Of a stretch of DNA of 37,544 nucleotides, positions 12,595 through 32,419 are shown in pieces. Position 1 is the first letter of the stretch; every line of letters starts with the position of its first letter. The DNA lies in IMG/VR virus record IMGVR_UViG_3300050821_001813, positions 1-37,544 of that record. One strand, given 5' to 3'. The stretch comes from a virus. The position numbers and the translations under genes are program-made. The notes beneath the pieces were generated by a model. The model was given only the letters and a program-made list of their open reading frames with translations, was not told the DNA's origin and did not search any database.

Positions 12595-12669
12595 TGGGGT
12601 GTAAGGTAGGATTTGAACCCACATAAACCGACGCCACAGGTCGGCGCATTACCTATCTGCCACTCACAC
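12595..12669 (-). tRNA. tRNA-His (anticodon GTG) without an encoded G-1
   Basis: Acceptor GTGTGAG/CTTACAC, discriminator C73, anticodon loop CTGTGGC, encoded CCA. The base before G1 is T, so the extra G normally encoded at position -1 in bacterial tRNA-His is missing. It follows the tmRNA coding piece by about 10 bases. Confidence 0.9.
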
Positions 12670-12679
12670 AAAACTTAAA

Positions 12680-13165
12680 TGGCCCGTTCTGTTTCCAAGT
12701 GGGCCAATCTCAGGCTGTTTAGGCCAGAACAAGATCATTGCTATTAACTTCAACCGAAGTTGAAACGCCAGCAATCATTTTGTCGTAAATGCTTGTTTCA
12801 GCAGTTACTTGTTTGATTCTCGTATACGGTGAGCATCAATCCCGGCACGTCCACTACACTACATTATACTGTCGAAACCTTGGCACACCCAAATTAATTA
12901 GCCCATGTGCATTACGCATTTGCACTCTCTAGAGGTTGCTGTAAACGACTTGCGAGGAAGTGACCTTGCAACTCAATTTGGGCTAAACTTATTACAAAAC
13001 TTGGTGGATGTGAGCGGACTCGAACCGCTGTCCAATATTACTTCATGTAACTTCATACGTGCGTACTTAAAATGTTTTTCCCGGTAGGATTACTTCTCGC
13101 CAAACTATTGTAATAGATTCAGCCTTTGCCTACGCACCGCTAGCAAGACGGCATGGCTTGGTGTT
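12680..13165 (-). ncRNA. ssrA: Circularly permuted (probably two-piece) tmRNA
   Basis: The 3' half comes first. The T-arm AGCGG-TTCGAGT-CCGCT and acceptor strand CACATCC, then A and CCA, end at 13002. After a 111-base spacer the 5' half starts at 12890 with GGGTGTG and the tmRNA hallmark GGTTTCGACAG. GGGTGTG pairs with CACATCC, including G3:U70, the alanine identity pair. P2 pairs across halves: ACGTGC with GCACGT and ATGTAG with TTACAT. The resume codon GCT (12800-12802, nucleotides 89-91) follows TAACT. A 27-codon tag ends ...NSNDLVLA with TAA at 12719. The outer ends (about 13165 and 12680) are estimates. It would rescue stalled ribosomes and tag their products. Confidence 0.88.
12891..13001 (-). 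ncRNA. tmRNA intervening sequence
   Basis: This 111-base spacer joins the CCA of the acceptor piece to G1 of the coding piece. TTAGCCCA and TGGGCTAA inside it (12979-12986 and 12898-12905) are exact complements and would draw the two ends together for processing. It is expected to be cut out. Confidence 0.7.
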
Positions 13166-30497: not shown

Positions 30498-31439
30498 ATG
30501 GCTAATTATAGCCCGTCGAGTAATAGTCAGTCAAATCTGCCTCAATCAACAGTACGCTATTACGACAAGAAATTCCGCGAAAACCTGAAGGCACAGACTC
30601 CTTTCGTAGCTTGCTCAGAACGTCTTGACTTGCCTATGAAGTCTGGTAACCAATATGAAATGTTCATGTATGTACCTCTGGCCGCTAACACAGCACAAAC
30701 TACAGAAGGTACAGTTGGTTCAGGTATCTCGGTACAAGTACTAACTACAACTGCAACCATCGGTGAGTATGCCGATTACGCAAACTTCTCAAGTCTATCG
30801 CTTGCTACCGCAATTGACAACACTGTTGAGAATGTGGCGCGTGAACTTTCATACCGCCTTGGTGAATCTCTTAGCGCACTTGTCCGTGCAACTGCTGACG
30901 GCGCAAACGCTATCGATTCTTCAGTACTAACACAGCTTGGTGCAACAAGCTTAACCTCATTCACAACTCTGTCATTGAACCAGATTCGTAACTCTGTACA
31001 GAGTCTTGCAGGTCGTTCGGTTCGTCCGTTCGACGAAGCTTCAAAGACATTCTGCGGTGTAATCCATCCGTTTGCGCTTGGTGACGTTCTTGCTGACAAC
31101 AGCAACAATGCTCCAATCGATATCTTGAAGCACACCCCAGTGGGTCTTGCAAGAATGGAAGACTTAATTTCTGTAGACCTTACAGAAATGATCGAACTCC
31201 CTTCAACCGGTGTTCGTTTCTTCCAGACAAACCAAGTTACCAGCACTGCGAACTATAAGAGCGTAACCGGTCTGACCGCGCTTCGTACTTATATCTTCGG
31301 ACGTGATGGTATCTTCTCTATCAAGCTTGGCGCACAAGGCGACACAGGCTTTGGAGATGGTGAATGGTCGAACATAAAATGTAACATCGTGCAAAATGCC
31401 GAGCCTTCTAACTGTGGGCTCGTTATAACTAGTCTATAA
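30498..31439 (+). CDS. Major capsid protein, first frame
   Basis: The first 313 residues of the MCP read MANYSPSSNSQSNLPQSTVR, then YYDKKFRENLKAQTPF and CSERLDLPMKSGNQ, and much later IFGRDGIFSIKLGAQG and ...QNAEPSNCGLVITSL. They match N4-gp56-type MCPs. The frame stops at TAA 31437-31439, but homologous C-terminal capsid sequence (VADPEGLIPGW...) continues in the -1 frame. The stop and a following ATG overlap as TAATG. A structured leader precedes the start, with AAGGA about 10 bases from the ATG. The intact capsid needs a frame change, re-initiation or a corrected base here. Confidence 0.9.
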   Translation: MANYSPSSNSQSNLPQSTVRYYDKKFRENLKAQTPFVACSERLDLPMKSGNQYEMFMYVPLAANTAQTTEGTVGSGISVQVLTTTATIGEYADYANFSSLSLATAIDNTVENVARELSYRLGESLSALVRATADGANAIDSSVLTQLGATSLTSFTTLSLNQIRNSVQSLAGRSVRPFDEASKTFCGVIHPFALGDVLADNSNNAPIDILKHTPVGLARMEDLISVDLTEMIELPSTGVRFFQTNQVTSTANYKSVTGLTALRTYIFGRDGIFSIKLGAQGDTGFGDGEWSNIKCNIVQNAEPSNCGLVITSL

Positions 31440-31767
31440 TGACAGTAGCCGATCCAGAAGGGTTAATTCCGGGCTGGACTAGTTACAGGGTAAAGGTAAA
31501 ATTGCCCTGTCTAAATTTCTCCTGATTGACTTGGAAGCTGAAATGGCTAACAGGGCGCAAGCGTAATGGCAGCGTGAACGACTAAGCGGAGAAACTTCGT
31601 AAGAAGATGCGATAGTCTGAACTGCATGGAAAAACAACATGCAGAGGTAGACAGAAATGATCTACCACTGAGAAATCAGTTAACAAATTTGGCATTTTAC
31701 AACATCTTTAGGCCCCGATACTACGATCAGAATCAGGGAAATTGATGCCGCGAGTGCAATAAGCTAA
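31439..31767 (+). CDS. MCP C-terminal part, second frame, interrupted by intron
   Basis: From the ATG at 31439, MTVADPEGLIPGWTSYR and the first two bases of a Val codon run to 31491. After the intron (31492-31691), coding resumes at 31692 as HFTTSLGPDTTIRIREID (ending AASAIS) and stops at 31767. Joined, this is 42 residues with the ADP...GW...Y pattern and RIRE strand seen near the end of N4-gp56-like capsids. It is one base out of frame with the gene at 30498. It may be a coupled separate peptide, or be fused by a -1 shift. Confidence 0.75.
31492..31691 (+). ncRNA. Group I intron in the major capsid gene
   Basis: P1: exon ACAGGGT (31485-31491) pairs with GCCCTGT (31504-31510), with the last exon base T paired to G31504 (the U:G splice pair). 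P10: exon 2 ATTTTAC (31694-31700) pairs with GTAAAAT (31496-31502). P3 is TTTCTCC/GGAGAAA (31516-31522, 31588-31594), P7 GACTA/TAGTC (31580-31584, 31613-31617), P8 CTTC-GTAA-GAAG, P9 CTGCATG/CATGCAG, then two more stems, one with a GAAA loop. The last intron base is G. It carries no ORF. Splicing joins GT|G (Val) and keeps the frame of the second capsid part. Confidence 0.9.
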
Positions 31768-31867: not shown

Positions 31868-32419
31868 ATGCGTAAATTGAATATAGCGGGACAAAAATTC
31901 GGAATGTTAACTCTTATTGAAGTAGTAGGAGTCAACAAAGCTAAACAAAGAATGTGGAGATGTATTTGTGATTGTGGAAAAGAACATTTTGCCGGACAAG
32001 CACACTTAACAACAGGAAAAGTCTCCAGTTGTGGGTGCTTTCGTAAGACAAAAAACCGCACACATGGAATGTGCCGTACTCCAGAATGGTTTGCTTACCA
32101 ACATGCAAAACAACGCTGTAAGGCTAATCATTCAAAGCACGAACACTATTTTGACCGTGGCATACGATTTAATTTTACTTCCTTTGAAGAATTCTTTAAC
32201 GAGGTAGGATTAAGACCTTCCGATAAGCATTCATTAGATCGAATTGACAACGACGGTAATTATGAAGTAGGAAATGTAAAATGGTCTACTAAATCGGAAC
32301 AGGAAAGAAATCGGCGTTGTAACAATTGTACTGCACTAAAACAAAGAATTAAAGAACTTGAGGCGCAAGTCGCTTCACACTTCGCAGACGGGTGCTCTCA
32401 TCTGCAAAAGGAGAAATAA
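31868..32419 (+). CDS. HNH homing endonuclease-like protein
   Basis: This 183-residue protein begins MRKLNIAGQKFGMLTLIEVV, with a zinc site (CICDCG... SCGC), then the HNH core HSLDRIDNDGNYEVGNVKWST and a basic end. This is the type of HNH protein often found as a phage homing enzyme. It is free-standing: 100 bases downstream of the capsid's second exon, not inside the intron. It could mobilise the intron or itself into the capsid locus. It has its own extended -10 signal. Confidence 0.9.
   Translation: MRKLNIAGQKFGMLTLIEVVGVNKAKQRMWRCICDCGKEHFAGQAHLTTGKVSSCGCFRKTKNRTHGMCRTPEWFAYQHAKQRCKANHSKHEHYFDRGIRFNFTSFEEFFNEVGLRPSDKHSLDRIDNDGNYEVGNVKWSTKSEQERNRRCNNCTALKQRIKELEAQVASHFADGCSHLQKEK

Follow-up and report, generated by a model that had tools for sequence, protein, structure and literature searches.

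The major capsid gene of the IMG/VR virus record IMGVR_UViG_3300050821_001813 (positions 1 to 37,544; this whole stretch of 37,544 nt is referred to here as the window) is interrupted by two inserts. The downstream insert is, as judged from its helices and their covariation, a group I intron that is predicted to be self-splicing. The upstream one, a mini-insert, is most probably a group I intron from which the core has been deleted, and we propose that it is excised by the ribozyme of the downstream intron, which would afterwards excise itself (Table 1).

The initial annotation had recognized only the 200-nt intron, for which it had described P1 with the U.G splice pair, a 7-bp P10, P3, P7, P8, P9 and further stems. 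All of these elements lie where it had placed them, and both of its intron boundaries are exact, since intronless relatives possess precisely the joined capsid end: removal of 31492-31691 joins GT|G and yields ..YRVHFTTSLGPDTTIRIREIDAASAIS-stop. The host gene was likewise correctly named; the product of its first exon matches the PHROG major head protein (E=6e-17). However, the unspliced capsid ORF (30498-31439) already ends 54 nt ahead of the intron, and the exon directly preceding the intron is in a frame different from that of the ORF starting at 30498. Hence, the 200-nt intron lies outside the capsid ORF unless the coreless second insert, which had escaped notice, is removed as well, and excision of the 200-nt intron alone does not restore the capsid.

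Intact relatives read without interruption through this region (..NIVQNAEP-TVADPEGLIPGWTSYRV-HFTTSLGP..) and lack both inserts in 60 distinct intact capsid ends. The capsid gene of an isolate, the Tunturiibacter phage Tunturi_3, is intronless, and its protein is exactly identical to the joined sequence. The window therefore holds two inserts, of 35 and 200 nt, that flank a 50-nt exon. We derived their boundaries from a splice-aware protein-to-DNA alignment in which base pairing was ignored; a small tie-break favored a T before, and a G at the end of, the insert. Relative to the nearest intact relative, the sequence following the inserts contains 20 synonymous and no non-synonymous changes over 105 nt, and a similar pattern dominated by synonymous changes was found at other loci. 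Exons 2 and 3 are thus under selection at the protein level, and both inserts must consequently be removed or skipped during expression. Two simpler readings of the interruption were rejected: the TAATG at 31437-31441 does not couple a downstream gene, because the relatives read straight through, and a -1 frameshift was discarded, with a TAG at 31430 in frame +2 and no obvious slippery site.

Table 1. Features of the interrupted capsid gene (a, pairings of the mini-insert; b, pairings of the downstream intron).
Feature	Position	Strand	Remarks and basis
Capsid gene exon 1	30498..31406	+	ends ..NIVQNAEP; ORF, PHROG, relatives
P1a exon strand CGAGCCU	31400..31406	+	U of U.G at 31406; sequence and column counts, 21 loci
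Mini-insert (putative coreless mini-intron)	31407..31441	+	35 nt, omega-G end; missing in intact relatives; boundaries from splice-aware protein alignment
P10a guide strand ACUGU	31411..31415	+	adjoins P1a guide; sequence, pairing statistics
P1a guide strand GGGCUCG	31416..31422	+	7 bp; sequence, pairing statistics
P2a strand in mini-insert, UAACUAGUCUA	31426..31436	+	pairing statistics, fold
TAA ending unspliced capsid ORF	31437..31439	+	within mini-insert; ORF list
Capsid gene exon 2, (T)VADPEGLIPGWTSYR(V)	31442..31491	+	50 nt; same protein in intact relatives; synonymous changes only
P10a exon strand ACAGU	31442..31446	+	start of exon 2; pairing statistics
P2a strand in exon 2, UGGACUAGUUA	31475..31485	+	abuts P1b; pairing statistics, fold
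P1b exon strand ACAGGGU	31485..31491	+	U.G at splice site; sequence
Full group I intron	31492..31691	+	200 nt, without ORF, terminal G; Rfam, relatives, alignment, covariation
P10b guide strand GUAAAAU	31496..31502	+	sequence
P1b guide strand GCCCUGU	31504..31510	+	sequence
P3	31516..31522 / 31588-31594	+	7/7 pairs altered on both sides
P4	31530..31533 / 31551-31554	+	core covariation
P6	31556..31558 / 31572-31574	+	core covariation
P7	31578..31584 / 31613-31618	+	5' strand A[C]GACUA, bulged C; core covariation
P8 hairpin CUUC-GUAA-GAAG	31595..31606	+	core covariation
P9, P9.1, P9.2 stems	31622..31680	+	sequence
Capsid gene exon 3	31692..31767	+	true stop 31765-31767; relatives, alignment, substitution counts
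P10b exon strand AUUUUAC	31694..31700	+	inside exon 3; 7-bp P10 with 31496-31502

The Rfam model Intron_gpI, proposed as a check in the initial annotation, matched the window weakly, at 20.1 bits (E=0.0084) against a gathering score of 50, so that the intron is not detected there at the gathering threshold; a sister intron in locus L205 exceeds this score (60.9 bits). The strong evidence came from covariation. Across 17 related cores, with the P3/P7 pseudoknot and the bulge of P7 counted in, 99.1% of the cells of P3, P4, P6, P7 and P8 are paired, and 17 of the 26 pairs are altered on both sides, a value equalled in none of 500 shuffles; sliding the partners against each other lowered pairing to 36-47%. 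The downstream intron hence combines a covarying group I core with a P1 carrying U.G at the 5' splice site, a P10 and a terminal G. One base of the internal guide sequence plus two exon bases lie between P10 and P1, and the inner pairing of P7, which we take from the established group I structure to be the guanosine-binding helix, is formed by 31580-31584 with 31613-31617. Group I introns are present in phage genes such as Twort orf142, genes of the Bastillevirinae (PMC11878797) and the capsid gene of Cluster J mycobacteriophages (PMC3706429). Within the accessible portions of these reports, the downstream intron resembles the known examples in its standard core, P1/P10, omega-G and residence in a phage structural gene, whereas each of those introns possesses a core and none is described with a coreless companion of the kind present here.

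The mini-insert (CGAGCCU|UCUAACUGUGGGCUCG..AUG|ACAGU) likewise exhibits a P1 with U.G, a P10 and a terminal G, but its 35 nt hold no P3-P8 core of their own. It therefore looks like a group I substrate and not like a complete intron. Its 3' half can pair with the end of exon 2 (UAACUAGUCUA/UGGACUAGUUA), which places P2a directly against P1b, and the predicted fold arranges P1a, P2a and P1b next to one another (z -3.4). A P9.0 partner for the omega-G step is not visible in the mini-inserts.

We scanned IMG/VR for the core and then aligned proteins to the matches; further scans and a combined scanner followed. Protein alignment yielded 13 capsid loci of the same design (mini-insert, 34-98 nt; exon, 41-81 nt; intron, 200-229 nt). 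With scanner matches and inspection included, the number of such loci rises to about thirty, spread over no fewer than four protein families, each with a coreless mini-insert (33-98 nt) and an exon (17-121 nt) followed by a full group I intron. The additions comprise L154, L243, L172, L094, L474, L477 and second pairs in L091 and L093 in the same capsid family, L096 in the capsid family by inspection, and L205 and L482 in less closely related capsids; they also include a MALLEA-type protein (L195, L275, L284, L484 and, tentatively, L253) whose intact relative gave no PHROG match, a portal gene (L270; PHROG portal, E=1.5e-104) and an unnamed gene (L220). At least seven combinations of mini-insert and intron sites occur in the capsid loci alone. 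Since the same inserts recur in relatives from other metagenomes (e.g., L084, L105, L122), an assembly artefact is unlikely. The scanner matches L107, L149, L151, L132 and L446 were dropped as coding or spurious-looking. No such pair was found in a cultured phage: the Tunturi_3 gene is uninterrupted, none was found in the Roseobacter phage CRP-118, and MW202674 is only a weak candidate below threshold (score 32.3). The mini-inserts of L084, L093 and L100 (94-98 nt) contain about 50 nt extra between P1a and P2a, apparently a hairpin. The core pattern matched just two of 84,980 genomes of bacteria and archaea, a Bacteriovorax MAG (L364) and an Acidobacteria MAG (L363), the latter with an intron in a capsid-like gene.

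The guides follow their exons. At the 13 aligned loci, P1a plus P10a reached the strength observed at the boundary in only 0-19 of 3000 shuffles of each mini-insert, and none of 50,000 swaps of guides among exons did as well as the matched pairs, for P1a, P10a and P2a each. When 21 loci are considered, position 1 of P1a is U.G in all of them, positions 2-6 are always paired (2-4 pair types), positions 1-4 of P10a are paired throughout (3-4 pair types) and every mini-insert ends in G; six of these loci stem from a scanner that demanded P1a and P10a, so the tests on the 13 loci represent the unbiased set. Loci at one site are kin, and all these pairing figures therefore overstate independence. 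P2a, which covaries for instance between L077 (GAAGUUGUG/CACAACUUC) and L102 (GAGGUUGUG/CACAACCUC), reached a summed score of 244, whereas the highest value among 2000 shuffles was 171.5; single loci were not significant in every case. In some folds this helix is weak: values are near 0 in L154 and L205 (helix scored), 0.08 in L061 and 0.15 in L284, and P2a and P10a overlap in L205.

These data bear on whether the mini-insert is simply a dead remnant, with a shorter capsid ending in SNCGLVITSL being made and the remainder of the gene decaying. The unspliced ORF is indeed open as far as 31437, and at another locus (L128, reverse strand, 1500-2050) a 74-nt mini-like insert supplies an entire second version of the capsid end, RMRLLDAASAVS-stop, so that there the unspliced message yields a capsid-like end as well. 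Yet exons 2 and 3 change almost only synonymously, and guides that track their exons across about thirty loci are not what decay would leave; we consider a remnant highly improbable. The mini-insert might instead be skipped by the ribosome. The bypass element of T4 gene 60 and the mitochondrial byps are short untranslated hairpin inserts in coding sequences, and elements of the size of the mini-insert are known. The mini-insert resembles them in its length, in having a hairpin where the ribosome would take off, and in its internal stop codon. Bypassing, however, needs neither a pairing of the 3' flank beside the guide nor a constant U.G and terminal G, and the known elements are not known to exhibit such two-sided pairing between exons and guide or a link to introns. 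Moreover, take-off and landing codons are unmatched in the window (CCT before the insert, ACA after it), mini-inserts occur in all three codon phases, and a hop would not account for their association with group I introns. A ribosomal hop is thus very unlikely.

Excision by a group I ribozyme accounts best for the mini-insert in our view, and the capsid transcript would then comprise two group I splicing units with a single catalytic core between them. The mini-insert would have retained the substrate part alone, namely a guide that pairs with the 5' exon (P1a, U.G) and with the 3' exon (P10a), and an omega-G end. P2a would set P1a in the place of P1-P2, ahead of the P3 of the downstream intron; a guanosine bound in the P7 of this intron could then cut after U31406, and exon 1 could attack after G31441, thereby joining exons 1 and 2 and freeing the 35-mer. 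Loss of the 35-mer would take away one strand of P2a, and the downstream intron would then splice 31491 to 31692 via P1b and P10b. The mini-insert would have to leave first, because the core is gone once the downstream intron has excised itself. Splicing, the identity of the acting core and the order of steps are inferred from sequence, the choice of core from P2a and from co-occurrence. The tie of P2a to the core is indirect, as its two strands, in the mini-insert and in exon 2, both lie outside it. With regard to co-occurrence, no capsid gene with a mini-insert alone was found among the loci with readable ends (60 distinct intact sequences and many double ones), and each of the three N-terminal mini-inserts that could be traced downstream precedes an intron (L096 was not alignable). 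The reverse arrangement does exist: L153 carries the full intron at the L205/L482 site without a mini-insert, and the full intron is thus independent of its companion.

A core acting in trans, supplied by the freed downstream intron or by a further phage intron, might also remove the mini-insert. Related phages hold several introns of this family, and any compatible core might serve, since guide and target both reside within the mini-insert and its exons. We nevertheless regard action in trans as unlikely, because no mini-insert was found without a downstream intron, P2a tracks the exon end that adjoins the partner intron, and a single such core was seen in the window, although the record is fragmentary. 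The closest mechanism is an engineered one. In the trans excision-splicing ribozymes of Bell, Johnson and Testa (reviewed in PMC6155759), for which excision of up to 28 nt is reported, and in spliceozymes (PMC4094466), a group I core excises a foreign internal RNA segment via P1 and P10, pairings that are predicted and covary here. These ribozymes carry the guide themselves and act in trans, whereas the mini-insert carries the guide within the excised segment.

Alternatively, both inserts could form one composite intron extending from 31406 to 31692, with exon 2 being skipped. The order P1a-P2a-P1b-P3 resembles P1-P2-P2.1-P3, and the skipping of an exon by tandem group I introns, the closest natural case, is known from Twort orf142 (23-nt exon) and the SIOphi polymerase gene (PMC10136302, PMC11878797). 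There, as far as the accessible text of these reports goes, neighboring introns interact around a short exon as they would here, but both introns have cores and the exon is lost, whereas in the capsid gene it would be kept. P10a fits exon 2 and not exon 3, exon 2 is under selection, and its skipping would lose conserved capsid sequence and join exon 3 out of frame in the window. We rank a composite intron as the least probable reading, although the exon-skipped form may arise as a minor product.

At three sites (aa328; FAKEIP|; GNQY|E), one phage has a mini-insert where another has a full intron, and at GNQY|E the mini-insert (L477) and the full intron (L112) have an unpaired loop start, ATCTAAAAA, in common. 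Because the same sites can hold either form, the mini-inserts probably derive from full introns by loss of the core. In L262 (7770-8013), the cores of two full introns of the family are separated by no more than about 220 nt, which leaves a very short exon between the introns; this arrangement is a possible precursor of a pair of mini-insert and full intron. It is likely, in broader terms, that natural coreless group I introns recur in phages, that the ribozyme of the next intron excises them in an obligate order through a P2 tether, and that full introns degrade into them.

Group I introns are described as bearing their own catalyst. We found no report of natural coreless ones in the open-access literature, and the about thirty pairs suggest, from their sequences, a hitherto unreported mode of catalyst sharing among RNA introns. 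If this holds, they would be the first natural introns found in this literature to borrow the catalyst of a neighbor, and would offer a small system in which to test how introns come to depend on shared catalytic RNA. Within group I, they would parallel the origin that has been proposed for spliceosomal introns. Like the mini-insert, spliceosomal introns have kept splice signals and need a shared catalytic RNA; this parallel is evolutionary, and the mini-insert differs in its group I chemistry, its single neighbor as donor and the fact that proteins are not implied. A lock-in benefit for the element is possible, since loss of the downstream intron alone would strand the mini-insert in an essential gene. 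Annotators should be aware that predictions of capsid and portal genes can be cut short by an insert of about 35 nt.

A free-standing HNH endonuclease gene (31868-32419) is located directly 3' of the capsid gene. Its product could drive homing of the whole block of mini-insert, exon and intron, but the gene is not a marker of such pairs, as it also adjoins intronless capsid genes. Two of the full introns in other pairs contain ORFs that look endonuclease-like by eye (L195, reverse strand, GIY-YIG-like; L093, 6720-7136, LAGLIDADG-like), and some pairs may thus be mobile. The window also encodes a permuted tmRNA on the minus strand (12628-13094; Rfam tmRNA_permuted, 73.2 bits) that is adjoined by a set of tRNA genes and whose tag reads, according to ARAGORN, AETSIYDKMIAGVSTSVEVNSNDLVLA-stop.
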